DNA of 64,000 nt from Halopenitus persicus. Lineage in GTDB: Archaea; Halobacteriota; Halobacteria; Halobacteriales; Haloferacaceae. The translations under genes and the position numbers were made by a program. The stretch spans positions 1,426,001 to 1,490,000 of the forward strand of contig NZ_AP017558.1 in the NCBI RefSeq assembly GCF_002355635.1. The letters run 5' to 3'. The notes beneath the pieces are model-generated. The model searched no databases. It saw nothing but the letters and a program-made list of their open reading frames with translations, and was not told the DNA's origin. Shown piece by piece: positions 3,799-21,256 of this stretch; the stretch's first letter is position 1; each line of letters starts with the position of its first letter.

Positions 3799-3849
3799 TC
3801 GGAGACGACACCGAAACGCTTTATCCGGACTCGGCCGACGGTAGACGAT

Positions 3850-5496: not shown

Positions 5497-5517
5497 GGGG
5501 CCGCGTCGGAGATCCAC

Positions 5518-5543
5518 CTCCCGGAGGTCCACCTCCCGGATCG
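5518..5543 (+). repeat. Short direct repeat after the ThDP enzyme gene
   Basis: A near-exact TCCACCTCCCGGA unit occurs twice head to tail in the 120-base gap between the ThDP enzyme and the hydroxyacid dehydrogenase. It is one of several small tandem duplications placed just after stop codons in this window. No function is evident. Confidence 0.5.
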
Positions 5544-5617
5544 CGGTGAAGCGACGTGTCGGCCGGCGTGGCCGACACCAGTACGTATTTGTGGGCGAGC
5601 CGACCACGGTAGTCCGT

Positions 5618-6577
5618 ATGTCGACTCCACCGACGGTGCTCGTAATGCACGAGGCACCACACGATCGGTCCGTCGAGGAGCTGTGGACGGCGATCGAGTC
5701 ACACGACGCGGCAATCGACCTGCGGCGGGCGCGTAGCTACGCCGAGACGGAACGGCAGATCCCGGAGGCGGAGATCGTGGTCACGCGGGCGCTCGACGAG
5801 GACCTCCTGGAGGCGGCGACCGAGCTGGAGTGGGTGCAGGCGCTCAACGCGGGCGTCGACCACTACGACCTCGACCGAATGCGCGACCGGGACATCATCC
5901 TGACCAACGCGTCGGGAGTGCACGCGATCCCGGCCGCCGAACAGGTTCTCGGAACGATGCTCCTGTTCGAACGGAACCTCCTGGAGGGGATCCGTCGCCA
6001 CCGGCGGCGCGAGTGGCGCCACTTCAGCGGCGGCGAGCTCCACGGCTCGACCGTCGGCGTGATCGGCGTCGGCGAGATCGGTGGCGGGATCGCCGACCGG
6101 ACGTCGGCGTTCGGAATGGAGACGCTGGGACTGCGCCGAAATCCGGATCAGGGACACGACTCGGTGGACGAGATGTTCGGTCCCGACGAACTCGACGCGC
6201 TGCTCGCGCGGTCGAAGTACGTGGTCCTCAGCTGTCCGCTGACCGAGGACACGCGTGGACTCCTCGACGCGCGGGCGTTCGAGTCGATGCGGTCGGACGC
6301 GGTCGTCGTCAACGTCGCACGCGGCGAGGTGGTCGACGAGGACGCGCTGGTGACGGCGCTGCGAGGCGGCGAGATCGGCGGCGCCGCGCTCGACGTCCAG
6401 GCGACCGAACCGTTGCCGGAGGACTCGCCGCTGTGGAACCTGTCGAACGTGCTGGTCACCCCGCACATGGCCGGCTCCTCACCGAAGTACCTCGACCGGT
6501 GTGCCGACATCTTCCTGTCGAACTACGAGCGCTACCGGCGCGGCGAGTACGACGCGTTCGAGAACAGGGTGCTGTGA
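5618..6577 (+). CDS. D-2-hydroxyacid dehydrogenase (NAD(P)-dependent)
   Basis: 319 residues from the ATG at 5618 (MSTPPTVLV); the frame is open further upstream, but a TATA-like GTATTTGT lies about 27 bases before this ATG. The protein would interconvert 2-keto acids and D-2-hydroxyacids. The Rossmann motif GVIGVGEIGGG is near residue 150. The catalytic triad is visible as R235 in NVARGE, a Glu near 264 in QATEPLPE and H283 in TPHMAG. Family length is normal. It follows the ThDP enzyme on the same strand, so it may reduce or oxidise a keto acid of the same pathway. It ends convergent with the ABC ATPase remnant. Confidence 0.88.
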   Translation: MSTPPTVLVMHEAPHDRSVEELWTAIESHDAAIDLRRARSYAETERQIPEAEIVVTRALDEDLLEAATELEWVQALNAGVDHYDLDRMRDRDIILTNASGVHAIPAAEQVLGTMLLFERNLLEGIRRHRRREWRHFSGGELHGSTVGVIGVGEIGGGIADRTSAFGMETLGLRRNPDQGHDSVDEMFGPDELDALLARSKYVVLSCPLTEDTRGLLDARAFESMRSDAVVVNVARGEVVDEDALVTALRGGEIGGAALDVQATEPLPEDSPLWNLSNVLVTPHMAGSSPKYLDRCADIFLSNYERYRRGEYDAFENRVL

Positions 6578-6654
6578 CCGATTCGGGAGCCGACAGCGAG
6601 GCGGCGTGACGAACGGCGATCGCGCGGTTCTCGAGTGACGATCCGACGGCTCGG

Positions 6655-7128
6655 TTATCGGTCCGACGGGTAAACCAGCGAGGCCCCCGTGTCGTCGTCG
6701 AAGAGGTGGCACTTCTGCAGGTCGAACTGGAGGCTGATCCTGTCGCCGCGCTGGAGGCTCGTGTTGGGTTCGACGATGGCCTGGTACTCGACGCCGTCGT
6801 TCTCGAGGGTGAGGAAGAAGTCGGACCCCATCTCCTCGACGACCACGACCTCGGCGGTGGCGTGATCCTCGGCGCTCGCGTCCTCGTCGAGTCCCTCGAC
6901 GCTGATGTCCTCGGGCCGAATGTCGAACTCGGCCGCGAAGGTTCCGCCGCGGTCGATCCGGTCGCGCATCCACTCGGGGTACGGGAGCGTGAACGCGTCG
7001 GTCCGGATCTCGCCCGCGTCGACGTCCACCTCCGCGTCGAAGAAGTTCATCTGCGGGCTGCCAATGAAGCCGCCGACGAAGGAGTTCACCGGCTGGTCGT
7101 ACTTGGTCAGGCCGTCGATCTTGAGATA
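6655..7128 (-). pseudogene. C-terminal remnant of a sugar ABC transporter ATPase (UgpC/MalK type)
   Basis: The frame encodes only the C-terminal part of a MalK/UgpC-type ATPase. PVNSFVGGFIGSPQMNFF is the junction that normally follows the ATPase core, and it leads into the TOBE/regulatory domain (FDIRPEDISVEG, QCHLF-like end). No Walker A, signature or Walker B is present. Just before it, in frame, the sequence reads TYLKIDGLTKYDQPV; TYLKIDGLTK resembles the N-terminal first strand of such ATPases, so the gene may have lost its centre by an internal deletion, but there is no start codon in the expected place. The base composition is that of the GC-rich host. It lies exactly at the left edge of the AT-rich island, so the original transporter was probably destroyed when the island formed. 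Confidence 0.7.
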
Positions 7129-7264
7129 CGTGGGTCCGTGGCGTCGTCTTCGGCAGGTTGTGCTTGCTTATGGATCAGCCAGGCCGATAGATCTGTGAAT
7201 CGAACCAGCATCTTGTTAGAAATATTTATTACGGGTGAATATGATTAGTCTGATGTGGTTTCGA
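7090..7264. other. Left junction between host DNA and the AT-rich island
   Basis: Composition changes between about 7140 (GC-rich coding remnant) and 7200 (AT-rich). AATATTTATTAC at 7219-7230 is the likely TATA region for the solute-binding protein gene. I see no integrase, tRNA end or long direct repeat matching the right junction near 21.1-21.25 kb. Confidence 0.5.
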
Positions 7265-8764
7265 ATGTCAGATGATAGCACGAGCGACAATGAAAAGTTG
7301 AGCCGACGGCGGACAATGCAAGCAACTAGTGGAATTGCTGCAGCGGCAATTGCTGGTTGTCTCGGAGATGGCGGTGGCGGCTCTGGTGGGAATGGAAATG
7401 GGGGCTCTGGTGGAAATGGAAACGGGGGCTCCGATGGTACGAATGGTGGATCCGGGGGTGCAACTATCGAATTTTGGGACGTTATGAACGCCCAGTCTCG
7501 GTCCGCCAGAGATCAAATAAACAACATAAGTGATCAATTCGAGCAGGACACTGGGAATCAAATCGACATAAATTTCAGTGGTTACGCGCAGTTGTCAGGA
7601 GCAAAGTGGTTTTCTTCCTTCGAGCGAGGAGACTATCCACACGTCTTTAGTGGTGAAAGTATTTTCACCGGTAGATTTGCGGAGCAAGGATGGGTCAAGC
7701 CGTTCGATGAATGGAAAGACGCTCTGGATGACGAGACGCTAGACAATATCCAATGGTTCCTCGATATTTACCGGGAAACTGGGAATACTTGGAAAGACGA
7801 CGTCGGATTGGAACACAGAGTTCACGCGCTCCCCGTCGGCTTAGTAACGCAGGAACCATTCCAAGTTCGTACCGATCATATGGAGGAGGCGGGACTGGAT
7901 CCCGATCAAGATTTCCCACCTGAAAGTTATGATGACCTACTTGATCTCGCACTAGAACTCAAAAATAACGGGCCATCAGACTATGGCTTCCAGGTTCATG
8001 GGGACGTCTTCGATTGGTACACCTACATCCTTCCCGCAGCTGCTGCATCCGGACGCTATGGATACTTTGCAGACGACTTCAAAAGTGTCAATTTTGACAC
8101 AGAGGAGTTCATCCAGCGTACGCGAGAGGCTGTTGGATTCTTCAGAGAACATGAAGTCTCTAACCCTGGAACTCCGCAGATGTCCGATGAGGAGGCAGTC
8201 GGCCTCCTCATCAATGGAGAGATCAGTATGAGCGTATGTGAACCACCGAACTTCCCCGAGTTTCTCGATCGCGGCCAAAGTCAGATAGAACAAGGGAACA
8301 TTCAGTACGGGAAATTCTTCGATACTGACGATGGTTTTGGTGTCGTACCCCTCTCGTTCTGCCTCGGGCTAACCAACAAGCCTGACGATGTTGATCAGGC
8401 AAAGTGGGATCGGCAAATGGAGGCAGCTAAGGAGTACATCAGTATGTGGTTCTCAAAAGACTTCCAGAAGTTTATGTTCTCAGAATTAGGTATGCTCCCA
8501 ATTCGTGAAGATGTGTGGGCAGAAGTGCAAGAGTCACTCGAATATGAGTCACAACATCAAGCCTTCGAGACTATGACGACAATGGCAAAGAACAGTGTCC
8601 AAGATAAATCGTCTTTCCCTCTTGTGGGAACGATTGAGCAGAACGTAATGGGCCCTCGATTCCAAGAAGCACTCAATGGAGAGATCACTCCGGAAGAGTG
8701 TTGCAACCGGGCCGCCGAAGAGGCTAACCAACTAATCGATGAATTCTGGGCAGAGCGCGAATAA
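7265..8764 (+). CDS. Extracellular solute-binding lipoprotein of a carbohydrate ABC transporter
   Basis: About 499 residues. The N-terminus has the twin-arginine motif SRRRTM (R14-R16), a short hydrophobic stretch and the lipobox IAGC with C32, then a Gly/Asn/Ser-rich linker to about residue 70. This marks a Tat-exported lipoprotein tethered outside the membrane. The mature part looks like a family-1 sugar-binding protein (ATIEFWDVMNAQSR start, FSGYAQ, PHVFSGES). ATG codons at 7235, 7241 and 7253 are in frame; 7265 places the RR motif at the usual distance. It is the first gene of an operon with two permeases. AT-rich codon use matches the island. The ligand is unknown; sugars, polyols or oligosaccharides are usual for this family. 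Confidence 0.85.
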   Translation: MSDDSTSDNEKLSRRRTMQATSGIAAAAIAGCLGDGGGGSGGNGNGGSGGNGNGGSDGTNGGSGGATIEFWDVMNAQSRSARDQINNISDQFEQDTGNQIDINFSGYAQLSGAKWFSSFERGDYPHVFSGESIFTGRFAEQGWVKPFDEWKDALDDETLDNIQWFLDIYRETGNTWKDDVGLEHRVHALPVGLVTQEPFQVRTDHMEEAGLDPDQDFPPESYDDLLDLALELKNNGPSDYGFQVHGDVFDWYTYILPAAAASGRYGYFADDFKSVNFDTEEFIQRTREAVGFFREHEVSNPGTPQMSDEEAVGLLINGEISMSVCEPPNFPEFLDRGQSQIEQGNIQYGKFFDTDDGFGVVPLSFCLGLTNKPDDVDQAKWDRQMEAAKEYISMWFSKDFQKFMFSELGMLPIREDVWAEVQESLEYESQHQAFETMTTMAKNSVQDKSSFPLVGTIEQNVMGPRFQEALNGEITPEECCNRAAEEANQLIDEFWAERE

Positions 8765-8824
8765 ATAACACTCCCGTTTAGGCCCCAAACATAAAATATT
8801 AAATAAAAAATTCTACATCCCTCT

Positions 8825-9769
8825 ATGAGTGTGAAAACTGATTCCAGACTGTTACGTAGCGCTAGAAGTTCATATAGCCATTACAAGTCCATACTTTCGG
8901 ACAACTGGTTCGCCTACTTGATGTTGGCACCTGTTGTTATTTTTCTCTTCTTGATCGTCTGGGTTCCGTTTCTTCGCGGAATTTGGATGTCTCTCCATCA
9001 ATGGTCATTCACCTCGACCGCCCCTCCGGAATTTATCGGCCTCGAGAACTACATATATCTGTTCGGATGGGAGCCATTCTATACTTCGTTGAAAGCGACT
9101 GCGTTATTTGCAACGACAACACTAGTCCAGCTGATAATAGCTCTCACCGCGGCTCTGTTGGTAAATAGCATAAGCAGATTCAAGAACCTGATTAGCAGTT
9201 CGTTCCTTATACCGTATACGCTCCCTCCGGTTGCGACGGGGACAATCTGGCTCTATCTCATCAACCCGAATGTTGGGCCAATATTTAAGTTCCTTACAAA
9301 TAAGAACATTCTCGACTCACCGATATACTGGAGCGTCCAAAGTGATACAGCTCTTATGGCGGTAATTGGTATCACGTCGTGGACCTTCTGGCCGTTTATG
9401 TTCCTGATTCTATTGGCCTCTCTTGAGAGTATTCCAGAGGAATATTACGAGAGTGCTCGTATGTACGGGGCCGGTATCGTCGATCGGTTTCTACATATCA
9501 CGCTTCCCCACCTCAAGACAGCGATTCTACTGGCTGTCAGTATCAGAATGGTTTGGAACCTCACGAAGGTCTCCCAAATTTATCAACTAACCGGAGGAGG
9601 ACCGGGATACTCAACCTCGATTTTAGCAGTGTTCCTCTACCGGTTCGCATATGATCAGGGCCAGTTCGGCCTTGCATTCGCAGTCGGTGTAGTGCTCCTA
9701 ATTATTACGTTGGCGTTCACGCTACTCTTCATCCGTGGCTTCGAGAAGTCTCGGAGTGATAACGAATGA
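8825..9769 (+). CDS. Carbohydrate ABC transporter permease (MalF/UgpA type)
   Basis: 314 residues with six predicted membrane helices: the first near 35-60 (YLMLAPVVIFLFLIVWVPF), the last near 280-305. The cytoplasmic EAA loop is seen in EYYESARMYGAGIVDRF followed by ITLP, roughly residues 207-227, which is where the ATPase docks. It forms a heterodimeric membrane pore with the next gene. The ATG follows an AT-rich 60-base gap after the binding-protein gene, and its stop codon overlaps the start of the second permease by four bases, so the two are translationally linked. Confidence 0.88.
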   Translation: MSVKTDSRLLRSARSSYSHYKSILSDNWFAYLMLAPVVIFLFLIVWVPFLRGIWMSLHQWSFTSTAPPEFIGLENYIYLFGWEPFYTSLKATALFATTTLVQLIIALTAALLVNSISRFKNLISSSFLIPYTLPPVATGTIWLYLINPNVGPIFKFLTNKNILDSPIYWSVQSDTALMAVIGITSWTFWPFMFLILLASLESIPEEYYESARMYGAGIVDRFLHITLPHLKTAILLAVSIRMVWNLTKVSQIYQLTGGGPGYSTSILAVFLYRFAYDQGQFGLAFAVGVVLLIITLAFTLLFIRGFEKSRSDNE

Positions 9770-10608
9770 GTATAACAAACAAAATCCAGAAAGTATCGAA
9801 TTCAAGTGCCCTCTTCGAATTCGTCAAGTGGGCGCTCATAGCGTGTATGATGGCGATTTTCGCCCTCCCGATGATGTTTGCGTTCTTTGCAGCATTCCGG
9901 CCACCTAATGAGTTCTATGCGAGCACGGTACGCATAATTCCGGAGGAACCAACGCTCTCTACATGGGTCGATGCGTTCGTAAGTCTGCAGGACCAGCTGG
10001 TGAACAGCTTCATAATCGCCACAGGAACCACAATTATGTCGATGGTGATCGTGATTCCAGCAGCATACGTGTTTGCCCGTAAGCAATTCCCTGGAAAAAT
10101 TACGCTTTTTTACCTGATCATCGCCGCAATGATGTTCCCGTATGTGTTGCTAATCATCCCTATCGCTTCGATCTGGGATGGACTAGGTCTCTACAATTCT
10201 ATTGTAGGGCTCTGGATAGGGTATCAAATATTCGTCACACCGTTTGCGATTTGGATTTTGCGAGATTATTTCGCAAAACTGCCGACAAATCTCGAAGAGT
10301 CCGCTCAAATGTACGGATGTACTCAAGCATCCGCATTCCTTCGAGTAGTGCTACCGCTATCTGCACCTGCAGTCGTAGCAGTGGGATTCCTCTCGTTCCT
10401 CACCGCGTGGAACGACTTCCTTATGTCAAATATGCTCACGACAGGAGTAGGTCCACGACCAGCAGTTGTCCAATTGTACATTATTACGACCGGTGAGGTG
10501 AAGCACTGGGGATTAGTGATGGCAATGACATTTATAATAGGGTTCCCACCTACTGTGCTCTACCTGTTGGGACGCCGCCAGCTATCTCAATCATTCAGTG
10601 TGGGATAG
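9766..10608 (+). CDS. Carbohydrate ABC transporter permease (MalG/UgpE type)
   Basis: 280 residues, six predicted membrane helices, and the EAA loop NLEESAQMYGCTQ followed by AFLRVVLP near residues 175-195. It is the partner of the preceding permease and starts inside that gene's stop codon (ATGA overlap). Together with the binding protein at 7265 and most likely the ATPase at 17413 it makes a full importer. The stop is followed at once by a 12-base repeat and by degenerate sequence, so the transporter operon is truncated here and its ATPase has been separated from it. Confidence 0.88.
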   Translation: MSITNKIQKVSNSSALFEFVKWALIACMMAIFALPMMFAFFAAFRPPNEFYASTVRIIPEEPTLSTWVDAFVSLQDQLVNSFIIATGTTIMSMVIVIPAAYVFARKQFPGKITLFYLIIAAMMFPYVLLIIPIASIWDGLGLYNSIVGLWIGYQIFVTPFAIWILRDYFAKLPTNLEESAQMYGCTQASAFLRVVLPLSAPAVVAVGFLSFLTAWNDFLMSNMLTTGVGPRPAVVQLYIITTGEVKHWGLVMAMTFIIGFPPTVLYLLGRRQLSQSFSVG

Positions 10609-10620
10609 CACTCCACGCTT
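10609..10620 (+). repeat. 12-bp direct repeat, copy 1
   Basis: CACTCCACGCTT begins at the last base of the permease stop region and recurs exactly at 12190-12201, so the pair brackets the MFS gene. Twelve bases could repeat by chance in a region this size, so its meaning is uncertain. Confidence 0.5.
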
Positions 10621-10924
10621 CTATAGGCGGATCGAAGCGTTCGCTGAGGTGTATCACGTCACCGTTCACGACTGATATCATCGCCTCGAACACCTGTCTG
10701 ATCCCGATTACGACCGGCGGTAGACGGTTGAGGTCGATGAGACTAATCTGGTTCCGAAAGATAGCGTTTAGACACCGATTGCCTTACTACAGTATCAGAG
10801 AATCAACTAGAAGCGGTCTCAAATCCTTCGCTGCTCTCCACAATACTATGCTCCAAAATGAATATATAATACCTTTGTGGAAGTGAATTTTTATTATCCG
10901 GTGAATGAGGATATTAGATATCCA
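10621..10924. other. Gene-free stretch, possibly decayed coding DNA
   Basis: No intact ORF. On the plus strand one frame reads protein-like pieces broken by stops (FYRRIEAFAEVYHVTVHD, then YHRLEHLSDPDYDRR, then TVEVDETNLV), and the reverse strand also has a 55-codon open stretch. This looks like a decayed gene, perhaps a transposase, but I cannot name the family. The last 60 bases are AT-rich and should hold the MFS promoter. Confidence 0.35.
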
Positions 10925-12124
10925 ATGAGTAAGCTAAGTTCAGTTCGTCAAGAGCTGTCCGATCTGTGGGCCGGAGGCAAAGGAAAATCGTTAATCGTTA
11001 TCGCACTAGGTTGGGGCCTATTAATCGGGACACGGATGATCTATCCACCTCTGATCCCATATATTAGCAATGACTTCGGCTTTACACTGACAACCGCTGG
11101 CTTCCTTGTAGCAGTCGTATGGATAACGCACTCAATTGGCCAAGTTCCAGGTGGAATCCTCGCAGATCGGTACAGCGAACGAAGAATCTTGATGGTAAGC
11201 GTAACTATAACTGCATGTGGAGTGATCACTGTACTCGTTGCCCCGTCGATGTTCGTGCTGTTTATCGCGACCGCACTAGTCGGGGCCGGATTGTCCCAGT
11301 ATCCCGTGGCGCGTATGACTATACTCTCTGATCTCTATCCCACCCGTCTTGGTCGTGCCCTTGGTGTAACGATGGCGTCGGGTGATGTCGGGCAGACAGC
11401 GCTTCCGCCCATCGCGAGCTTTCTCGCAGCTGCGGTTTGCTGGCGGCTTGGTTTCAGTTACGTTCTCCCGTTCTTTTTTCTCACCGTGGTTAGCCTCTGG
11501 TGGGTACTACCAAAATCAGACTCGGAAGACGGCGGTTCTAAGAACGTAAACAAGAGCACTTTCTCGATTATCGCTGAACTCTATTCGCCAACGATCGCAA
11601 TTATGTGTGTTATGCTATTTTTATTCCTTTTCGTTTGGCAAACATTTTCGGCGTTTTATCCAATATATCTCACTGATGAAAAAGGACTGTCTCCGACCAT
11701 CGCCGGGATTCTATTCGGACTCTTTTTTGCCGTCGGTATCGTCATCAAACCACTGACTGGCGCGGCATATGATAGAGTTGGAGTTCGTCGGTCCCTGCCA
11801 GTAGTTCTGAGTGGCTCGATTATCGGTTTTATGCTGCTTCCGTTTACTGATAGCATTGTTGGGCTGGTTGGAGTGACCATTCTGATTAGTACCATACAGG
11901 GTAACGGCGCAATAGTTCAACCATACTTAACTGAAACTTTACCTAACGACATTCAGGGCATCGGACTAGGTCTTGTCCGGTCGGGTACTGGACTACTTGG
12001 TGCAACGGGACCGTTGATATTCGGTGCAATAGCTGAAGGAGGTCACTATGATGCAGGATACATAATATTAGCCATTCTCGTCACCGTTATCTCTGGGCTG
12101 GCACTGCGGATACCTGATGCCTGA
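10925..12124 (+). CDS. Major facilitator superfamily transporter
   Basis: 399 residues with about twelve membrane helices. The MFS loop 2-3 signature is visible as GGILADRYSERRIL near residue 75, and a similar loop in the second half as GAAYDRVGVRRSL. Such proteins are single-chain secondary carriers in the cytoplasmic membrane, often proton- or sodium-coupled. The frame opens at 10877, but the ATG at 10925 (MSKLSSVRQ) gives a normal N-terminus ahead of helix 1. It lies alone between two gene-free stretches and is flanked by the 12-base repeat. The substrate is unknown; the context (cyclic amidase, RidA, dehydrogenases) makes an organic acid, nucleobase or amide plausible. Confidence 0.82.
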   Translation: MSKLSSVRQELSDLWAGGKGKSLIVIALGWGLLIGTRMIYPPLIPYISNDFGFTLTTAGFLVAVVWITHSIGQVPGGILADRYSERRILMVSVTITACGVITVLVAPSMFVLFIATALVGAGLSQYPVARMTILSDLYPTRLGRALGVTMASGDVGQTALPPIASFLAAAVCWRLGFSYVLPFFFLTVVSLWWVLPKSDSEDGGSKNVNKSTFSIIAELYSPTIAIMCVMLFLFLFVWQTFSAFYPIYLTDEKGLSPTIAGILFGLFFAVGIVIKPLTGAAYDRVGVRRSLPVVLSGSIIGFMLLPFTDSIVGLVGVTILISTIQGNGAIVQPYLTETLPNDIQGIGLGLVRSGTGLLGATGPLIFGAIAEGGHYDAGYIILAILVTVISGLALRIPDA

Positions 12125-12619
12125 TTACCAGTAATCGAATGTATGGAACCGAAGTTAAATGAGGTCGCCAACACCGCTGCTTCTGTCAACACTCCACGCT
12201 TGAGGTGGTTTTATTATTTCGTAAGCCTAGAATAATACTCAACCATCGTTGAAAAGTCGGATTACTACTAAGGGTTCACCGCCGAAGTCTACAACCTCGA
12301 ACAAACGGTCAAATAGTAATTCCAATCCGTCATCGGATTCCAATAAGCAGACAAGCCCGATCTTCCTTCGATACTTTGTCCACTCAGAACCAAGCAGCAT
12401 TAAATATAGATGACAACATTCGAGCGCGCCGAACGATTAGCACATCAAAGAGCAGGGTAAACGCTAAGACGGCATATGCTCAGCGATCCTGCAAGGTGGT
12501 CCCTCGGTAAACTCATTCTTCAATGTCGTGGAGATAGAGACGTTGACTGTTTGAACATCTCTCCTTCGAAGCTGATGCGTGAGTTCCCCCAAATGTTGAA
12601 CTCGGGCTAGTGGTGATGA
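12125..12619. other. Gene-free stretch with second copy of the 12-bp repeat
   Basis: The repeat CACTCCACGCTT is at 12190-12201. The rest contains only short frames interrupted by stops on both strands, such as GFTAEVYNLEQTVK on the plus strand. It resembles decayed insertion-sequence or gene debris, but no family is recognisable. It separates the MFS gene from the convergent dehydrogenase. Confidence 0.4.
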
Positions 12620-13393
12620 TTACGCTAGTCGACCTCCATTAACTTGGATTTCTGCTCCGGTGATGAATTGGCTCATCGGTGACGCCAGATATAATGTGGC
12701 TTTGGCGATATCATCTGGCGTGCCGAGCCGGCCAAGTGGAATCATATTCCGGATCTGATCGTCTGCTAAATCACCTGAATGCTTACTTCCAACATCGAGA
12801 TTGGAATCACTCAGCGTGGTTTTTCCAGTCCGGGTGGGAGTGATGGTGTTCACGCGAATTCCGTCATCTGCTAATACCTTTGCTACTGATCGGGTGAAAT
12901 TCAATATGCCCGCTTTTGTAGTCGCATATGCAACTGAATATTTTTCTCCTCGATGTCCTGACGTTGACGAGAAATTAATGATGCTTCCACGATCTGAGTT
13001 TTTCATAGACTTCGATACTTCTCTCGTACAGAGGAATGTTCCACGTAGATTGACCTCCACGGTCCGATCAAATGCGGATGCAGACATCTCTAGGAACTCG
13101 GAGTTTTCTTTCACTGCTGCATTATTAACTAGGATGTTAGCAGGCCCGAATGTATCTTCAGTGTATTCGACCATTGCTCTGACTTGGTCCTCGTCTGCAA
13201 CATCAATAGCCTGCGCCCGTGCCGTTCCGCCATCGTCTTTTATAATTCCAACTGTTTCATTTGCCCGTTCCTCATCGATATCGACCACGACCACCTTTGC
13301 ACCCTCTGAAGCGAACAATATAGCGATCGATCGACCGATATTCCTGCCCGCACCCGTAACAATAGCTACTTCACCAGATATGTCGAGTTCCAT
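12620..13393 (-). CDS. Short-chain dehydrogenase/reductase (SDR family)
   Basis: 257 residues, a normal classical SDR. The cofactor motif TGAGRNIG is residues 13-20, NNAA is at 90-93, the catalytic Ser is S143 (FSSTSG), and Y156-K160 form the YxxxK pair (YATTK). D38 after strand 2 (VVDID) suggests NAD rather than NADP. The reaction is oxidation of an alcohol or reduction of a ketone; the substrate is unknown. The ending FITGAEIQVNGGRLA is typical. It stands alone on the minus strand between two degenerate regions and has the AT-rich composition of the island. Confidence 0.85.
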   Translation of the reverse strand: MELDISGEVAIVTGAGRNIGRSIAILFASEGAKVVVVDIDEERANETVGIIKDDGGTARAQAIDVADEDQVRAMVEYTEDTFGPANILVNNAAVKENSEFLEMSASAFDRTVEVNLRGTFLCTREVSKSMKNSDRGSIINFSSTSGHRGEKYSVAYATTKAGILNFTRSVAKVLADDGIRVNTITPTRTGKTTLSDSNLDVGSKHSGDLADDQIRNMIPLGRLGTPDDIAKATLYLASPMSQFITGAEIQVNGGRLA

Positions 13394-13429
13394 ATCTGGG
13401 ATGTTTCGGTGTTCATATTAAAGGTATGG

Positions 13430-13960
13430 GTAACCTATCCGGACGAGGTAAGTTGTTTGGGCGCGAGTCGACGAGCCGCGTCGTGATCCAGATGTGGATT
13501 CAAAGGTTTGGACGGAAATTGGACGAGGCCGGTCGGCGATATACCGCTGAACTGCCGGCCATTGTGCTGGTGAGCAAAACCATCGCCAAACGACAGGGAG
13601 AGAAGTTTATGCTGTTCGTCGCGGTCGATCGAGAAACTCATCGCCCCACTACACGGCGGTAACTCCATTGCGGGAGTATCTCATAACTCAGCGGTTTCTA
13701 TCAGGAATCACCGAGTTATACAGATGAGATTTACCAACTATAGTAACGGTGAGACTAGCTATAGCTCCGTCTTCACCAAACTGAGAGCTACTTACATTTC
13801 CCATCAGTACAGTCCAAGAAATCCAATACTGAATTCAAGAGCTGAAACGCCGCAGAAACACGTTCTATACGTCGTTCATCAACAACCTACCACCCGAGCA
13901 GTTGTCTGGGATAATTCGCTTGGATATGGAGCGTCTGTCCGAATTATTATTATCACTTAC
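13430..13960 (+). pseudogene. Decayed DDE transposase gene (IS6-like, haloarchaeal)
   Basis: Pieces of one transposase are spread over different frames. At 13470-13650 the frame gives WIQRFGRKLDEAGRRYTAELP and then KTIAKRQGEKFMLFVAVDRET, where the expected DET of the catalytic site reads SKT. A shifted frame then gives YLITQRFLSGITELYR at about 13670-13720. At about 13840-13900 another gives IQELKRRRNTFYTSF, matching the conserved ELKRR-DTFYASF C-terminal block of haloarchaeal IS6-like transposases. At least two frameshifts and internal stops make it dead. The short ORF at 13426-13662 is only its first piece. I could not find terminal repeats. Confidence 0.55.
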
Positions 13961-14020
13961 CAAATGATCATGTCAGTTGGGAAACCTACACATCAGATGC
14001 GAAATTTTTCTACAACCCGG

Positions 14021-14809
14021 TTAGCGCTCAGTACCGACTAAATATCCTCCATCGACGACCAATGTATGCCCCGTAATATATTTCGCCTCGTCAGATGCCA
14101 AAAACAACGCCGCATTTCCTATGTCTTCAGGTTGACCGACGTATGGTAAAGTGATCTGATCAAATATAAACTCACCAACTTCATCCATATCATTCATAGA
14201 CGTGTCGATCGGTCCTGGGCAGATGGCATTGACAGTAATCCCGTCCGGTCCGTAATCGATAGCCATTTGCCGCGTTAGTTGAATTATTGCCCCTTTAGAG
14301 GAACTATACGCCGCTTTCGCGTCAACTGATCCTCCGCGCATCCCTCGCTGAGAAGCTATGTTGATGATCCGCCCCGCATCACTCTGTTGGAGATATGGTA
14401 TCGCCGTACGCATACAATTGTATATGCCGTTAACGTTGATATCTTGAACTTTGTTCCAATCCTCCGGAGACGTATTATGGATTTTACCCTCGACGCTTAT
14501 TCCAGCATTATTGACGAATACGTCGATCCCTCCAAAACGCTCTACCACCTCTTCAGTCAGATTTGCGGTATCATCTGAGTCGCTTACATCTGTCTCAACG
14601 AAGACACCACGCTGACCGTGGGATTCGATTTCTTCGACTGTGGTTGTCTTCTCCGTTGTTGATTTCGGCTCCTTTCTGACGTCGGCTACGGCGACGTCAG
14701 CTCCGTTTTTCGCGAACTCGATAGCGATCGCTCTGCCGATTCCACTCGCGGCACCTGTAACGATGGCCGTCCGATTTGCTAGCTTCACCTGTAACCTTTC
14801 TCTCCCCAT
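14021..14809 (-). CDS. Short-chain dehydrogenase/reductase, FabG/glucose-dehydrogenase-like
   Basis: 262 residues from the ATG at 14809 (MGRERLQVKLANR); an upstream in-frame ATG at 14842 adds an unlikely hydrophobic extension. Motifs: TGAASGIG at 18-25, D43 (VADVR), NNAG at 100-103, S153 (IASQRG), Y168-K172 (YSSSK), and the C-terminal ITGHTLVVDGGYL. All catalytic residues are intact, so it should be an active NAD(P)-dependent alcohol dehydrogenase or ketoreductase with unknown substrate. It is transcribed divergently from the hydantoinase-family gene across a 166-base AT-rich gap, which suggests joint regulation. Confidence 0.85.
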   Translation of the reverse strand: MGRERLQVKLANRTAIVTGAASGIGRAIAIEFAKNGADVAVADVRKEPKSTTEKTTTVEEIESHGQRGVFVETDVSDSDDTANLTEEVVERFGGIDVFVNNAGISVEGKIHNTSPEDWNKVQDINVNGIYNCMRTAIPYLQQSDAGRIINIASQRGMRGGSVDAKAAYSSSKGAIIQLTRQMAIDYGPDGITVNAICPGPIDTSMNDMDEVGEFIFDQITLPYVGQPEDIGNAALFLASDEAKYITGHTLVVDGGYLVGTER

Positions 14810-14975
14810 ATATAAAAATATTTTATTTGATATGATACACATAAATTATAAGATACTATTCAACTGTCAATCTGAAAGCCCCCATAATTTGTCGCGGGCG
14901 GCTGATGAACTTCTGTTAACCCTTATAAAGGATGGTCGGCAAATATTTACAGTTGGCATACAAGGATGGAATACG
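14810..14975. promoter_or_regulatory. Divergent promoter region between SDR and cyclic amidase genes
   Basis: The gap is strongly AT-rich, with TATATAAAAATATTTTATTTG next to the SDR start serving as a TATA region on the minus strand, and CTTATAAAGG at about 14921-14930 on the plus strand. Two divergent catabolic genes sharing one short region suggest a common regulator, but no clear operator palindrome was seen. Confidence 0.45.
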
Positions 14976-16361
14976 ATGCCCGTACAGACGCGGATCGATA
15001 ATGGAGAGATAGTAACATCATCAAACGTGAGAGAGGGAAGTGTCGCGATCGACGATGGGAAGATTGTCGCAATCGGCACGAAAGAAAACGTTCCACAAGC
15101 TGAGAGGGTTATTAATGCAGAGGGGAAGATAATCCTCCCGGGAATAGTCGATCCTCACGTCCATATTGATGAAGTACCGGAAAGTCAAGGTCGGGCTGGC
15201 AAAATGGAAACTGAAACTGCTGCTGCAGCTCTCGGAGGCGTGACGACGCTCATTGATTTCGCGTATCAGGGGGGAGATCTTCGGCTCAACGACGGTAAAG
15301 ACTTAATTGCCGGTATTAAACACAAGCGCTCTAAAAACGAGTCGAGTTACGTCGATTACAGTCTTCACGGAGTCTTACACCGTGAAACCGCACGAACGCT
15401 TGACGAAATTGAATTAGCAATCGAAGAGGGAGTCACTTCGTTCAAAATGTTTATGTCTAGTAGCGAAATGGGGGTCTCCAACGGGTTTATTTTTCGAGCC
15501 TTTGAGAAGATTGCCGAAGAAAATGCCGTAGCAGCAGTTCATACAGAGGATATATCTATCTGCGAGGCTCGAGAAGGCCAGTTGAAACGTGCCGGAAAAG
15601 GTGATTCTCGGTTCTTTGCTGATTCACGTCCCGATTTTGCTGAAGCAATGGCCGCTGAAGATGCCATTCGGGCTGCCGTCGAAACGGGGGTGAAATACTA
15701 TGGAGTCCATACGACGTGCAGAAAGGCGGCAGAGGTTTTCGATTGGTTCCAGGAAGACAACTCAAACATACGTGCTGAAACATGCACACATTATACAGTA
15801 TTAGATCGATCTTCTCACGAGAAATTCGGAAATCGGTCGGTCCTCAAACCACCATTACGGACTCCGGATGATCGAGAGGCAATGTTCGAGTATCTTCAGA
15901 ACGGTACGCTGACCGTCGTTTCCACCGACCACGTTACGTATTATGAAGATTATAAACAGACCTCCAACTGGTGGGATTCGCCCTACGGAGTCAATTCGAT
16001 CCAGTATAGCCTCCCAGTCTTTTATGAAATAGCGATACGACAACGGAATCTTTCGTGGCCTTTCCTTGTTCAAGTGATGTGCCGTAACCCGGCACAGACG
16101 TTTGGCATACCGCAGAAGGGCACTCTTGATCCCGGAACGGACGCAGATATCGTCATCTTCGATCCAGATTCTGGAAGCGACATTACAGCGGAAAATAACG
16201 CGTCGAACTCGACGTTTTCAATCTACGAAGGGATGCACACGTCTGGTTCCGTAGAGAAAGTGTTTGTTCGGGGTAACCTTATTGCGGATGCCGGGGAGAT
16301 AGTCGCCGAGAAAGGACACGGTGAATTTATTCAGCGAGAAATCCCCCAGTGGACTAATTAA
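14976..16361 (+). CDS. Dihydropyrimidinase/hydantoinase-family cyclic amidohydrolase
   Basis: 461 residues from ATG 14976 (MPVQTRIDNG); the frame is open upstream only because it overlaps the divergent SDR. The fold is the amidohydrolase TIM barrel with two metals. All metal ligands are visible: H61 and H63 (HVH), the carboxylated lysine K157 (SFKMFM), H189 (VHTED), H245 (GVHTTC) and D318 (STDHV). Enzymes of this type open cyclic amides such as dihydropyrimidines, hydantoins or allantoin-like ureides to N-carbamoyl acids. RidA follows by 66 bases on the same strand. No carbamoylase of the M20 family is seen nearby; an M28 peptidase is 3.3 kb away. The exact substrate is unknown. Confidence 0.85.
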   Translation: MPVQTRIDNGEIVTSSNVREGSVAIDDGKIVAIGTKENVPQAERVINAEGKIILPGIVDPHVHIDEVPESQGRAGKMETETAAAALGGVTTLIDFAYQGGDLRLNDGKDLIAGIKHKRSKNESSYVDYSLHGVLHRETARTLDEIELAIEEGVTSFKMFMSSSEMGVSNGFIFRAFEKIAEENAVAAVHTEDISICEAREGQLKRAGKGDSRFFADSRPDFAEAMAAEDAIRAAVETGVKYYGVHTTCRKAAEVFDWFQEDNSNIRAETCTHYTVLDRSSHEKFGNRSVLKPPLRTPDDREAMFEYLQNGTLTVVSTDHVTYYEDYKQTSNWWDSPYGVNSIQYSLPVFYEIAIRQRNLSWPFLVQVMCRNPAQTFGIPQKGTLDPGTDADIVIFDPDSGSDITAENNASNSTFSIYEGMHTSGSVEKVFVRGNLIADAGEIVAEKGHGEFIQREIPQWTN

Positions 16362-16427
16362 TCCACGCAACTATAAGATATCGATAAAAAATTATTAGTA
16401 TTGGTGTATACTAGCGTTTGATGCAGT

Positions 16428-16808
16428 ATGAGACAGATCGAAACTAGTGAAGTTGCCCCTAGTAGCGCCCCCCTGTCACAAGCGATTGTGGAAGGAGATC
16501 TCGTATTCGCATCGGGCCAGATCCCAAGAGAACCGGATGGCACGATTATTACGGGAGACATTAAGGAACAAACCGCACAAGTTATGGAAAATCTATCTTC
16601 GATCCTCGAGGAGTCTGGTTCTTCACTTGATAATGTTATAAAATCAACCGTATTCCTTACCGATACAGAACATTTTGACGGTTTTAACGATATGTATGCC
16701 AAATATATGAATGAACCGTATCCGGCACGAAGTGCATTTATTGTCGCCTCCCTCGCTCGAACGGAGATAGACGTTGAGGTAGAAGTCATCGCCAAAATCG
16801 ACGAATAA
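16428..16808 (+). CDS. RidA family (YjgF/UK114) protein
   Basis: 126 residues, the usual RidA length. Visible features are SGQIPREPDG near residues 31-40, the conserved Arg R101 in YPARSAF that holds the substrate carboxylate, and the C-terminal VEVEVIAKI. RidA proteins hydrolyse reactive enamine/imine intermediates to keto acids and ammonia, and some relatives (RutC type) act in pyrimidine degradation. Being directly after the cyclic amidase in the same orientation suggests it clears a reactive nitrogen intermediate of that pathway. The AT-rich segment with ATAAAAAATTATTAG just upstream may be its own promoter. Confidence 0.88.
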   Translation: MRQIETSEVAPSSAPLSQAIVEGDLVFASGQIPREPDGTIITGDIKEQTAQVMENLSSILEESGSSLDNVIKSTVFLTDTEHFDGFNDMYAKYMNEPYPARSAFIVASLARTEIDVEVEVIAKIDE

Positions 16809-16814
16809 ATAGCT

Positions 16815-17350
16815 CGCTACTGTAGTTTCGGTACACGGCAGTGGTTTTCAGTAGGTCTCTCGGAACTCGCACGGTAGCACCGAGCGTGCGCTTAATTGAC
16901 GAGAAGACAGCTTCAAACTGATCGCTGGGAATTATTGATCACTATCCATATGGGCGTGATGGTACGGTTGGCGTAGTTCTGCTGGACTGATCTTGACGGT
17001 CGAAGCTAGTAGTATCGATAGCAACGTAGTCAGTGCGTTTCCCGGCTGCTGCGCCGAAAAACGCATACCACGTCTTCGTAGAGACTCGCTCGAACCAGTT
17101 GGGTAACATCATAATGAGGAGTCGTATGAGACCAATCTCTTCAAGGGCGCTGGACAGTTCTGAAAACAGCTTCACCGCAATGCAGTAGGATTTGTCTAGC
17201 TCGATGCGAAGTGCCAAGGTGAGCATCACCCACTTAGCGAAGCCACTTCCCCGCTAAGATTGGCAGATTCGTCTAGGTTATTGACATCTTGTTTAGTCTT
17301 ATCGACCGTAACACGCGTGAAGAGACTGATTTTCGGATGTCACACCGATC
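16815..17350 (-). pseudogene. Decayed IS5-family (ISH1-like) transposase
   Basis: The minus strand carries three pieces of one haloarchaeal IS5-type transposase. From 17345 an N-terminal piece (SLFTRVTVDKTKQDV) runs to a frameshift near 17240. It continues as GFAKWVMLTLALRIELDKSY, then NWFERVSTKTWYAFFGAAAG and the catalytic AIDTTSFDR block (ORF 17229-16942). After an internal deletion the C-terminal piece FEAVFSSIKRTLG appears at about 16910-16870, with decayed sequence beyond. The gene is dead. It separates RidA from the ABC ATPase, so IS activity probably rearranged this part of the island. Confidence 0.65.
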
Positions 17351-17412
17351 CGTCTCTTCACTTTCTACCGAGGTAACGTAGTCGTCGTCGAGTCTAGCGA
17401 AGCTACAAACTC

Positions 17413-18561
17413 TCAGATCAAACGTTCGCCCTGCCTATCGAATAGCCAGACCTTAGATGGGTCAATGTCCACAGTTACGCTCTCTCCCACATCAGTAACT
17501 TCACCTTGATCTACCAATGCGTTGAGATCATATTCACTAGCTTCTAGATAGACTGTATCATTCGCTCCATTGGGTTCAATTACGGAGATGTCTGCGGTGA
17601 ACAACTTGGAACCACTATTCAGGTCGAAGAATTCCGGACGTATTCCGAGGGACACCGTTTCTCCATCCTTGACATCGACTTCGGTGTTCCTCTGCGGGAT
17701 ATTGAGTGAAAACAGGTCGTTCGAGACATATAGACTGTCGTCCTGAACCTCAAGTGTCGATTCGATAATATTGGTTGAAGGCGATCCGATAAATTCAGCT
17801 ACGAATTGATTCGCAGGCTCGTTATAAATCTCATATGCCGATCCCACTTGCTGAATATATCCATCATCCATAATTACAATCTTATCACCTAGTGTCATCG
17901 CTTCTTCCTGATCGTGAGTGACAAAGATCATAGCTATCTCGAGCCGCTGTTGTAATTTCTTGATCTCGGTCTGCATCTGATCTCGAAGATTAGCATCAAG
18001 CGCCGAGAACGGTTCATCAAGTAAGAATGCGGCCGGTTCCATCACCATCGCCCGACCAATGCTAACGCGCTGCTGTTGACCGCCCGAAAGTGCATTCGGT
18101 TTTCTATCAAGCATCTCCTCGATACCAAGCATTTCAGCGGCGTCTTCCACACGATCATTCTTTTCTTTTTTCGAAAGATCGGTCATCATATCCAGACCGA
18201 ATCGCATATTCGCACGAACTGTTTTGTGTGGATATAGTGTGATATTTTGGAAGACAAAAGCGAGATTCCTGTCTTTGGGTTTTAAATTTGTTACGTCGTC
18301 CCCATCAATACGAATTGATCCCGAATTTGGCGTTTCCAAACCAGCGATCATACGCAGTGTCGTTGTTTTCCCACACCCAGATGGCCCGAGAAATACTACA
18401 AAATCATTCTTCGAGATATTCAGGTTAATATTGTCACAGGCGATTATCTCCCCGTCATCGAATGTTTTCGAGAGATCGGTCAATTTGATATAACCATCGG
18501 CCTTTTCGGGCGTGGTAGGATTTTCATCAACAAACGCTTTTTCCGGTTGTCGAAGACCCAT
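17413..18561 (-). CDS. Carbohydrate ABC transporter ATP-binding protein (UgpC/MalK type)
   Basis: 382 residues with a complete ATPase: Walker A GPSGCGKT at 59-66, the Q-loop (VFQNITLYPH), signature LSGGQQQR near 152, Walker B FLLDEPFSALDA near 175 and the switch His (FVTHDQEEAM). The C-terminal regulatory part from about 245 (FVAEFIGSPSTNII, GIRPEFFDL) is typical of MalK/UgpC. It powers sugar-type importers. Its AT-rich composition matches the binding protein and permeases at 7265-10608, which lack an ATPase, so it is most likely their missing component even though it lies 7 kb away in the opposite orientation. The minus-strand TATA (ATTATTTGAGG side) is at about 18583-18598. Confidence 0.88.
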   Translation of the reverse strand: MGLRQPEKAFVDENPTTPEKADGYIKLTDLSKTFDDGEIIACDNINLNISKNDFVVFLGPSGCGKTTTLRMIAGLETPNSGSIRIDGDDVTNLKPKDRNLAFVFQNITLYPHKTVRANMRFGLDMMTDLSKKEKNDRVEDAAEMLGIEEMLDRKPNALSGGQQQRVSIGRAMVMEPAAFLLDEPFSALDANLRDQMQTEIKKLQQRLEIAMIFVTHDQEEAMTLGDKIVIMDDGYIQQVGSAYEIYNEPANQFVAEFIGSPSTNIIESTLEVQDDSLYVSNDLFSLNIPQRNTEVDVKDGETVSLGIRPEFFDLNSGSKLFTADISVIEPNGANDTVYLEASEYDLNALVDQGEVTDVGESVTVDIDPSKVWLFDRQGERLI

Positions 18562-18612
18562 AGTATGGAATTGGCCATAGCCTCAAATAATCTTTATGGT
18601 GCAGACAAAGAA
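18562..18612. other. Promoter gap before the IS6 relic
   Basis: A short AT-rich spacer carrying the likely TATA of the ABC ATPase gene on the minus strand (CATAAAGATTATTTG read on that strand). Nothing else is recognisable. Confidence 0.4.
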
Positions 18613-19288
18613 CAGTGTTCAGATAAGATCAAAAAGTGAGGCGGACGTAGTTCCTTGGTTCCTCTGCCAGAAACCAGCCGCCTCACCGACTGTGGCGACT
18701 TCCCGGAGTGTGAGTTTGTGGAGCGAAAGTCGACACTCGAGCCCGCGATGAAGTTGGGCATCCAACTGTATCTGGCCGGGCTGTCGCTGGCGAATGCCGT
18801 TTCGGTCCTCGCAAACCGGGTGGCGAGCGCTGTCGGTCCACCGCTCAACTGGGTTCAGAAGGCAAACCTACAGCCTGCAGAGGGTCACGACTTGGATTAT
18901 GTCGCGGTTGACGAGACAGTAATCCGCGTGAATGACCAGCACTACTGGCTGTTTAGGTGGTTAATCCTGACTCGAATCGCCTGCTCCACGTGCGATTGTT
19001 CCCGACCAGGACCTCCGCACTGACCGAGACGTTTCTCGCGGAGCTCCTCGAAAAACATCTTGGTGATGACGCGGTATTCCTGGTCGATGGTGCACCGTGG
19101 CTGCAGGCTATCTTCACTCACTCCGATTCCAACAGTCAAGGGGACTCGGAATGTCGTCGAACGCACCTTCAAAGAGCTGAAACGTCGAGCTGAAGCGTTT
19201 GCCAACCACTTCAGCACGCTCAGCCCGAAACAGTAGAAACGTGGTTCAAGCATTTGCTGTCTGCTTCAATCAGCTAATCTGAACAATG
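18613..19288 (+). mobile_element. Decayed IS6-family insertion sequence with imperfect terminal inverted repeats
   Basis: A 676-base element bounded by 15-base imperfect inverted repeats at 18613-18627 (CAGTGTTCAGATAAG) and 19274-19288, whose reverse complement is CATTGTTCAGATTAG (13 of 15 identical). The size fits haloarchaeal IS6 elements of about 700 bases. The flanking 8 bases do not match, so no target duplication remains. The outer ends are uncertain by a few bases. The transposase inside is broken. Confidence 0.6.
18650..19280 (+). pseudogene. IS6-family transposase pseudogene
   Basis: Three frames together give most of an IS6 transposase. Frame 1 (18655-18958) holds MKLGIQLYLAGLSLANAVS, then WVQKANLQPAEGHD and the first catalytic block DYVAVDETVIRVNDQHYWLF. 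After a frameshift near 18958 the next piece (to about 19130) gives LLHVRLFPTRTSALTETFL and FLVDGAPWLQAIF, the second catalytic block. A third frame from about 19140 gives NVVERTFKELKRRAEAFANHF, the third block. A final shift gives VVQAFAVCFNQLI and stop. All catalytic Asp/Asp/Glu positions are recognisable, but the gene has at least three frameshifts. Confidence 0.75.
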
Positions 19289-19675
19289 CCGAGGGGAGTC
19301 AAAGTTGGAACGCCACATGGTGACAAACGGTGAGGGCTGTGAGCCATAATATGGTTGATTCAGCGATGATATAGAAGGAAAACCAATGACATAAACGGTT
19401 TGCTTCGGTAAATGAAGATCTCGAGCCGTGTTTCGACGGGTGGCCGGTTTCGCTCATATTTCTCGTGCATACTCGCGATCTAAGAGTTCAAGCGGCCAGC
19501 CGTATCACGTGCCACCGACACTCGTTTGCTTTTCCAAGCTTGTTTAGCTAGCTACCTACACTCCCTGAACGAAGTCGAGAAACAAGAACTCTATGGCCGA
19601 ATACGTCCCCAAATTCAGTCTCACTAAACCGGGGGATTGAGGAACTTATAGTGGCTTTTCAACAAAGCGTACTGC
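19289..19675. other. Gene-free stretch after the IS6 relic
   Basis: No convincing ORF on either strand; every frame is broken by stops. The composition is intermediate. A stretch near 19550-19610 can be read as a protein-like fragment (LNEVEKQELYGRIRP) but cannot be assigned. The M28 peptidase gene ends at 19676 on the minus strand, so this is also its downstream region. Confidence 0.4.
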
Positions 19676-21052
19676 TCACCATCGCCATCGGTCTGTTACC
19701 TTTAGAGTATCTTCATACCCTTGATCAATCAGGGCGCTCCGTACCTCCTCTGTAGAAGCAGCAGCGATCTTTCGCTCATTTTCGGTGAGTTTTATGATGC
19801 CCGTCGTAAGTGCAATTGCGAGTTCCCTGAAATCTCGATAATTATGCTTGTCGAGTGTGTCAGCGTGCGTATGTCCCCACCCCTTCGGTGTAACGCCAGA
19901 CGTTGAATCCCGTTGTTCCGATCCGACATACGCAGATGGCACTCCATTCGAGGCGAATGTCCAATGGTCACCATACATATTTAATTCATCAGTTACCTTC
20001 ACTGGCGTGTGCACCTCGTCTTCCACTTCCTTGAACGCCCTACCAATCTCGTCAAATCCATGAGTTCTCACGTACAAATTGTTTGAAAATCCGATCCCAT
20101 CTAAATTTATTACACACTTAATATTCTCAGAATTGTTATTTTTGATCCAATAGTCCGATCCGTATAATCCAAACTCTTCCGCTCCAAATAGCACCAGTCG
20201 CACTCTCGAGTCAAGTTCAGATTCGATTTGCGACAGGAGTCTCCCGACCTCAACGACGAGTGCAGAACCGAATCCGTTATCTCTGGCGCCGTTCCCTAAG
20301 TCATGTGCATCAATGTGCGCCGTGAGAAGGACCTCCTCTTTTGATTCTGGGCCCAAAACAGCCTCAATATTTTTCGACTTGGCAGGTGCTTTTGTACAAT
20401 TGACTTCAAGCGATGCCGTCACGGATCCTTTTTTTAGATGACGGAGAATTCGCCTCCCCTCCTCTCGAGAAATCGCTGCACCAACCACTGAGCCAATCAG
20501 AGTATCGTCATTTGTAGTATCAGCCCATGGATTTACTGTACCAACCGCCGGAACGCACCCAGGGATCTGGTTTCGGAATAAAAATCCGACTGCGCCAGCA
20601 TTAGCAGCTCTAGCGTATTTCTCATATCGCTGGAGACGTCTATTGACGCCAGCAGGTGTCCGATTCGACGTCATCACGATCTTGCCCTCCAATTCGGTCG
20701 AATCAAAGTCGCCCGGAACCCCCGCATCAATGCTGTATATTTCTGCCTCGATATCACCTGACGGGCTACCCGGTAAAGCTACGATCTCATGCTGCCGGTC
20801 AAGTTGCCAACGGTTGGATCCGTTTACCTCGAGTGTTGTTGTGCCACGTTGCCAGCCGGGAAATTCGAATTCATTTGTTTCGATATTGTGAGCGTCTATG
20901 GCAGAAAACTGTTTTTTGACGAGTTCACGGGCTTCTTTTTCTCCATCAGTTCCGGCTAACCGGTTGCCAATGTCGGTTAGCTCTTCCAAGAATTCCCAAC
21001 TGCGTTCATTTAGATACGCATCTCCGACAATCGCTGGTGGGATCTCTGACAT
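19676..21052 (-). CDS. M28-family metallopeptidase with PA domain
   Basis: 458 residues. The N-terminus lacks a signal peptide, so the enzyme is probably cytoplasmic. A PA-like insert is at about residues 95-215 (DFDSTELEGKIVMTSNR, GAVGFLFRN). The M28 zinc site is complete: His and Asp in LLTAHIDAHD, the bridging Asp in GNGARDNG, Glu pair in FGAEEFG, Asp in VINLDGIG and the final His in GHTHADT. Such enzymes remove N-terminal amino acids or act on related amides. It is the last gene of the AT-rich island. It could cleave peptide substrates or, speculatively, an N-carbamoyl or amide product of the cyclic amidase. Confidence 0.85.
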   Translation of the reverse strand: MSEIPPAIVGDAYLNERSWEFLEELTDIGNRLAGTDGEKEARELVKKQFSAIDAHNIETNEFEFPGWQRGTTTLEVNGSNRWQLDRQHEIVALPGSPSGDIEAEIYSIDAGVPGDFDSTELEGKIVMTSNRTPAGVNRRLQRYEKYARAANAGAVGFLFRNQIPGCVPAVGTVNPWADTTNDDTLIGSVVGAAISREEGRRILRHLKKGSVTASLEVNCTKAPAKSKNIEAVLGPESKEEVLLTAHIDAHDLGNGARDNGFGSALVVEVGRLLSQIESELDSRVRLVLFGAEEFGLYGSDYWIKNNNSENIKCVINLDGIGFSNNLYVRTHGFDEIGRAFKEVEDEVHTPVKVTDELNMYGDHWTFASNGVPSAYVGSEQRDSTSGVTPKGWGHTHADTLDKHNYRDFRELAIALTTGIIKLTENERKIAAASTEEVRSALIDQGYEDTLKVTDRWRW

Positions 21053-21256
21053 CGATTATTTGATAGATTGAATAGTATATATTACTTTTGGTTCGGATTT
21101 CTCTATACACATAACTATCTACTAAAGCCACCGAACGTGTACTGATTAGATCTTTCCGTCGGTATGAACAGCGGTTTGATCGACAACACCGACAAGCCCA
21201 CAACGAGCCGGTAACCGAAATTTACCTATACGAGGCGGCGGATCGTCTCCACGGAG
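21053..21256. other. Right junction of the AT-rich island and promoter of the aldehyde dehydrogenase
   Basis: The first 70 bases are AT-rich (minus-strand promoter of the peptidase gene), then composition rises to host level by about 21170. TTTACCTATA at 21221-21230 lies about 30 bases before the ATG at 21257 and is the likely TATA element. No integrase, tRNA or matching repeat with the left junction was found. Confidence 0.5.

Follow-up and report, generated by a model that had tools for sequence, protein, structure and literature searches.

The 64,000-nucleotide stretch of the Halopenitus persicus genome analyzed here (contig NZ_AP017558.1, hereafter the window) contains a foreign, horizontally acquired island. 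The island encodes a cyclic amidohydrolase accompanied by two NAD(P)-dependent short-chain dehydrogenases (SDR1 and SDR2) and a protein of the RidA family. We consider it an even question whether these genes form the core of a catabolic island, in which the amidohydrolase would cleave the ring of a cyclic amide or ureide and the product would pass to RidA and the SDRs without a carbamoylase. The sequence-only reading of this DNA had proposed a compact module for degrading such a compound, formed by these genes together with an MFS carrier and an M28 peptidase. All of the named genes are in place (Table 1), and the interpretation is partly supported, as an acquired ring-opening catabolic module that employs an unusual variant of a known superfamily.

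Fold and metal site of the amidohydrolase

The window amidohydrolase reaches 81.4 bits against the Pfam model Amidohydro_1, which has a gathering score of 25. Its AlphaFold2 model has a mean predicted local distance difference test (pLDDT) score of 94.5, and superimposes onto the D-hydantoinase 1yny with a Z score of 57.5 and a root mean square deviation (rmsd) of 1.6 over 445 residues. The six residues of the metal site, H61, H63, K157, H189, H245, and D318, comprise the HxH motif, the carboxylated lysine, two histidines, and an aspartate. They are invariant across 83 haloarchaeal and 72 bacterial aligned sequences, and the earlier statement that all metal ligands are present is correct. The sequence, predicted structure, and metal site uphold the assignment as a hydantoinase-type cyclic amidohydrolase.

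The protein resembles the D-hydantoinases/dihydropyrimidinases 1yny, 1k1d, and 1nfg in fold (Z 57, rmsd 1.6–1.8 over 445–450 residues) and in the bimetal site. However, it is approximately 30% identical to them, contains serine in place of the pocket-lining Tyr155 of the Bacillus enzyme, and scores 314.3 bits in the D-hydantoinase/dihydropyrimidinase model TIGR02033, under the cut-off of 393.25. The score in the allantoinase model TIGR03178, which was calculated for the window protein and not for its uricase-linked relatives, is 273.5 bits, under the cut-off of 357.85. The best sequence match in the PDB is 1gkr, the L-hydantoinase of Arthrobacter. Automatic annotation designates such enzymes as dihydropyrimidinase, allantoinase, or "amidohydrolase family protein". 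A second hydantoinase-like amidohydrolase is encoded in the same genome around G000:C1 1608481 (loci L192 and L197), beside an NCS1-type permease.

Haloarchaeal relatives and their gene neighborhoods

A search of 391 haloarchaeal genomes (E 1e-60 or better) identified amidohydrolase matches in 94 genomes, which belong to a close haloarchaeal clade of approximately 100 members (~44–65% identity) and a distant group (~33%). Neighborhoods were taken for 80 clade members, then for ten more, and for named relatives; loci of the nearest relatives were located with patterns from the window protein itself. The stretches are 9 to 59 kb long (L235 is a partial sequence), and since their lengths differ, the absence of an M20 gene is less certain in the short ones. 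Many clade members adjoin genes for uricase, HIU hydrolase, OHCU decarboxylase, and an enzyme of the M20 hydantoinase/carbamoylase family. These uricase-linked members look like allantoinases. Five other clade members (L117, L118, L125, L126, and L144) adjoin genes of HyuA/HyuB type and amidase genes, not uricase or M20, and represent another pathway context.

Two trees were calculated, one of 100 rows by a quick method and one of 44 rows by a careful method. In the latter, the window amidohydrolase groups with its homologs from Halosimplex carlsbadense and Natronomonas aquatica in a three-row group (support 99/93), and belongs to an eight-member sub-branch (support 100/99). An M20 N-carbamoylase is encoded nearby in all seven other members of this sub-branch, and uricase is linked to none of its nine rows. 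The window had been described as lacking any known N-carbamoylase. Indeed, a single query with the M20 enzyme of Halosimplex found no M20 (TIGR01879-type) homolog in the 64-kb window at E 1e-5, yet the genome encodes one approximately 487 kb away (G000:C1:952980-954191). It shares 42% identity with the M20 partner in Halosimplex, and its neighbors are other transport genes. Uricase and urease were not found in the H. persicus genome by one query each, the empty answers having no positive control.

Substrate gate and its association with neighboring genes

Tyr155 lines the substrate pocket of the Bacillus D-hydantoinase, and the E. coli allantoinase AllB has Thr151 at this position, as described in PMC9863593. 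The gate tyrosine is present in EcHyuA and in 72 of 72 bacterial relatives. The window amidohydrolase has a serine there (S163 in the alignment), within loop II, and its loop I has two residues more than that of the nearest relatives. AllB and the Arthrobacter L-hydantoinase 1gkr likewise have no tyrosine at the gate; however, AllB is 29% identical to the window protein, and the genome contexts of both enzymes are unlike that of the window. Gene decay was rejected as the origin of the serine, as the open reading frame (ORF) has its full length. Strongly conserved positions deviate at six sites of the window protein, which places it 4th to 7th among 83 sequences (3 to 9 deviations in the top 20).

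The gate residue in 93 clade members is tyrosine in 77, aspartate in 11, glycine in three, asparagine in one, and serine in one. Neighbors were counted if an SDR lay within 2.5 kb (matching SDR1 or SDR2 with a minimum of 25% identity and 70% coverage), a RidA within 2 kb, or an M20 enzyme within 12 kb. The five members without gate tyrosine or aspartate have an SDR in five cases, RidA in four, and M20 in none. Among the 88 members with tyrosine or aspartate, the corresponding numbers are 2, 0, and 64. Fisher tests of gate against neighbors, which ignore relatedness, gave values of 1.7e-6 for RidA, 4e-7 for SDR, and 0.002 for M20, and the count is not blind, because the gate residue had drawn attention before its neighbors were tallied. 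The set omits L190, the ORF of which did not cluster, and the fragment L009, which has tyrosine. L190, inspected separately, has a gate tyrosine and no M20, RidA, or SDR. Eleven members found later contain ten tyrosines and one aspartate, with no gate loss among them and no RidA or SDR in their 4.4-kb loci.

On the tree, the gate was lost three times independently and RidA was gained twice, and the pairs point the same way. A topology that unites the window protein with the other RidA-linked members was rejected by the approximately unbiased (AU) test (p 3.75e-11, gate-loop columns left out). This discards a single common origin of RidA-linked amidohydrolases, and the combination therefore arose at least twice. 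The third independent gate loss is that of L230 (genome G286), which has a gate asparagine, an SDR gene directly beside it, and a creatininase-family gene near, with no RidA and no M20. The aspartate gate defines a branch of 11 of the 93 members (L174–L180, L184, L185, L188, and L189), nine of which have uricase near.

Recurrence of SDRs, RidA, transporters, and the M28 peptidase

SDR1 and SDR2 score 236.9 and 202.6 bits, respectively, against the Pfam model adh_short_C2 (gathering score 27). Names assigned to them by NCBIfam (glucose dehydrogenase, FabG, and many others) were not used as functions. At E 1e-70, SDR1 has 16 matches in 12 of the 391 genomes, of which seven, from five genomes, are no more than 15 kb away from a clade amidohydrolase; Halosimplex carlsbadense (L002) is an additional case beyond the 391-genome set. 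SDR2 is found at E 1e-62 in two genomes, that of H. persicus and that of Natronomonas aquatica (G219), where it is located approximately 10 kb from a clade amidohydrolase. SDR1 and SDR2 homologs lie side by side in Halosimplex, 5–7 kb from the amidohydrolase; beyond Natronomonas aquatica and Halosimplex, no close SDR2 homolog was found. Because of this recurrence, both SDRs look like true associates of the clade amidohydrolases, and their conservation does not show the independent neighbors that would have refuted the module.

The window RidA scores 123.7 bits in TIGR00004 (cut-off 106.25) and shares the YPARS motif with its PDB relatives. It does not belong to the RutC family according to TIGR03610 (56.2 bits, cut-off 169.1). 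RidA directly adjoins clade amidohydrolases in genomes G345, G141, and G277 (Natronosalvus rutilus), where SDR1 homologs are near and no M20 was found. RidA likewise recurs next to relatives of the enzyme in other haloarchaea, more weakly than the SDRs. A locus of Natronosalvus rutilus plasmid NZ_CP100356.1 (L283, 4–36 kb) encodes the amidohydrolase, two RidA proteins, several SDRs, three M32 carboxypeptidases, a creatininase-family protein, an amidase, and a dipeptide-type ABC transporter; this cluster looks like one for the breakdown of peptide-like nitrogen compounds.

The remaining genes attributed to the module are less firmly connected. The MFS carrier does lie in the same island, but it has no conserved linkage to the amidohydrolase, and no conserved linkage of an ABC transporter with clade amidohydrolases was found. 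The M28 peptidase is also part of the island, but its link is weak. It is located beyond the IS5- and IS6-type remnants, and only two distant homologs (38–39% identity) are near clade members, at L114 and L190. The counterpart in Natrialba magadii is surrounded by several peptidases and a transporter for peptides.

The island and its insertion site

The GC content decreases from 68.7% in the left flank to 47.8% at 7103–21212, and rises to 67.5% in the right flank. A genome of the same genus (G060) carries an island-free site, which fixes both breakpoints to the base (7103 and 21212). Window positions 3800–7102 and 21213–22470 align to positions 10818–14141 and 18646–19901, respectively, of G060 locus L277 (both ~93%). 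In G060, the segment between them (L277 14142–18645, ~4.5 kb) encodes two permeases, a binding protein, and the greater part of an ABC ATPase. In the window, the island thus took the place of most of the native CUT1 ABC transporter, which is still intact in the same-genus genome. The island also brings a CUT1 transporter of its own, the permeases of which are 26–30% identical to the replaced native ones.

The flanking D-2-hydroxyacid dehydrogenase, aldehyde dehydrogenase, aldolase, and IclR genes were rejected as module members. The sugar-acid genes among them are native according to the G060 alignment and are therefore outside the module. The D-2-hydroxyacid dehydrogenase lies in native DNA shared with G060 at 93–94%, and its homologs do occur close to some amidohydrolase relatives. 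Remnant ORFs at 16942, 18942, and 13724 have no Pfam match. A sigma-70 scan of the region, a method unsuited to archaea, gave results at chance level.

Table 1 Features of the acquired island and its left border (window positions)
Feature	Position	Strand	Remark
SDR1, NAD(P)-dependent short-chain dehydrogenase	14021..14809	-	divergent from amidohydrolase; start 14809 assumed, longest ORF from 14842
Cyclic amidohydrolase (hydantoinase/allantoinase superfamily), 461 aa	14976..16361	+	metal site intact; gate Tyr replaced by Ser; loop I extended by two residues relative to nearest relatives
RidA (Rid family detoxifying hydrolase)	16428..16808	+	66 bp 3' of amidohydrolase; conserved PARS arginine
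SDR2, second short-chain dehydrogenase	12620..13393	-	Pfam adh_short_C2
MFS transporter	10877..12124	+	inside island; linkage to amidohydrolase not conserved
CUT1-type ABC transporter (island copy), substrate-binding protein and two permeases	7235..10608	+	
ABC transporter ATPase (UgpC/MalK type)	17413..18561	-	probably serves island ABC transporter
M28 family peptidase with PA domain	19676..21052	-	least firmly linked to module
IS5-type transposase remnant	16868..17407	not assigned	matches annotated IS5 family transposase
IS6-type transposase remnant	18613..19290	not assigned	80% identity to annotated IS6 family transposase
Native ABC ATPase stump (C-terminal part)	6655..7089	-	high GC; cut by island; outside module
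Foreign island	7103..21212		14.1 kb, 47.8% GC

Proposed pathway and alternative explanations

From the family and the intact metal site, we infer that the window amidohydrolase cleaves the ring of a cyclic amide or ureide, using the bimetal, carboxylated-lysine chemistry of its superfamily. The ancestors in its sub-branch may have worked with an M20 N-carbamoylase, a partner that the window copy would have lost. Since this partner is missing and both gate loops are altered (tyrosine to serine in loop II and two additional residues in loop I), the enzyme probably takes a different ring compound than its relatives. The ring-opened product or a derivative could then be passed to RidA for hydrolysis of an enamine or imine, and one or both SDRs would subsequently oxidize or reduce the product. 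We infer the ring opening, the order of the steps, and the joint function of the three kinds of proteins.

The proposed route resembles the E. coli Rut pathway, in the last part of which RutC deaminates 3-aminoacrylate and a dehydrogenase (YdfG) reduces the product, as described in PMC8113886. Both routes would bring together a Rid protein and a dehydrogenase with a nitrogen compound whose ring has been opened. In the Rut pathway, however, the ring is opened by the RutA/F monooxygenase; the window RidA is not RutC, and no RutB is known here. The sequence-only reading had stated that no haloarchaeal pathway with this gene set was known to it. The gene is not isolated, as haloarchaeal ureide clusters have been proposed (PMC8305020, PMC6801745) and the clade of the enzyme has many members; the usual M20 partner is missing near the window copy. 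The Haloferax volcanii HVO_B0302 cluster, which includes a predicted allantoinase of PucH1 type, is a proposed ureide cluster that its authors call "highly speculative" (PMC8305020). A second Haloferax cluster, tabulated in PMC6801745, contains a "putative allantoinase; dihydropyrimidinase" and an M20 enzyme. As proposed there, the PucH1-type protein would be an enzyme like that of the window, encoded within a ureide cluster of haloarchaea (PMC8305020). The window differs in having a gate serine, where uricase-linked clade members have tyrosine or aspartate, in RidA and SDRs, and in having no M20 or purine genes nearby. The main text of a Rid genome survey (PMC4433059) does not contain "amidohydrolase", "dihydropyrimidinase", or "hydantoin", and a literature search for a hydantoinase together with RidA returned one paper, which concerns a bacterial herbicide degrader.

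Several observations weigh against the joint function proposed here. The gate was lost only three times and RidA became linked only twice independently, too few events for a pairs test to become significant. The SDR family is very large, and membership in it does not indicate a substrate. The closest relative of the window RidA, from Haloterrigena turkmenica (77% identity), adjoins PdxS and a pyridoxal phosphate (PLP) enzyme with no amidohydrolase, and the RidA gene was therefore recruited separately. RidAs beside other clade amidohydrolases are 46–48% identical to that of the window, no closer than background. The RidA-linked members L216, L217, and L219 (G345/G141/G277), which have a gate glycine, contain glutamine in place of the first metal-binding histidine of the HxH motif and therefore may not share the same chemistry; the replacement raises a mononuclear metal site, or no hydrolysis, as what these proteins may have. 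Furthermore, several IS remnants lie inside the island, which may be a patchwork. It is conceivable, if on the unlikely side, that the island holds a real cyclic amide hydrolase, perhaps with its SDRs, and that RidA, the ATPase, and M28 are unrelated IS-borne cargo, RidA providing housekeeping protection. The remnants and the place of M28 past them fit this explanation, as do the Haloterrigena turkmenica RidA, which has PdxS/PALP genes as neighbors and an IS6-like stretch at a distance of 41 bp, and the wide distribution of RidA homologs (83 of the 391 genomes at E 1e-28 or better). It is opposed by the RidA genes of a separate branch, which directly adjoin three further clade amidohydrolases, and by the absence of RidA beside all 88 members with tyrosine or aspartate.

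An allantoinase of purine or ureide breakdown, as most of the clade would be, is improbable. The links of clade relatives to uricase, HIU hydrolase, OHCU decarboxylase, and M20 enzymes of the allantoate amidohydrolase family point to this function, and AllB also has no gate tyrosine (Thr151, PMC9863593), but the uricase-linked members retain tyrosine or aspartate, the sub-branch of the window is free of uricase, neither uricase nor urease turned up in the unverified single queries of the genome, and the allantoinase score is under its cut-off. We find it similarly improbable that the enzyme is a hydantoinase/dihydropyrimidinase whose N-carbamoyl product is finished by the distant M20 enzyme, as an ordinary two-step pathway spread over the genome. 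Such a homolog exists, and M20 lies beside all seven nearest relatives; the homolog is, however, just 42% identical to the Halosimplex partner and placed among other transport genes, and the D-hydantoinase score is likewise under its cut-off.

Returning to the carbamoylase-free route through RidA and the SDRs, we speculate, as an unlikely extension of it, that haloarchaea turned an allantoinase-like amidohydrolase to such a pathway at least twice independently, and that an enzyme without the gate tyrosine accepts an unsaturated or other ring that yields an enamine or imine for RidA and the SDRs. If true, RidA would act within the pathway and not as housekeeping protection, and the type of pathway in each genome could be predicted from the gate residue.

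Implications

The island is a clean example of a foreign catabolic island displacing most of a native transporter, with base-exact breakpoints. The gate residue and the neighbors split the amidohydrolase family into at least two contexts, one linked to M20 and uricase, corresponding to a ureide pathway, and one linked to RidA and SDRs. If the split holds, a single residue would flag members with a different candidate substrate, and could lead to a new nitrogen source of haloarchaea.

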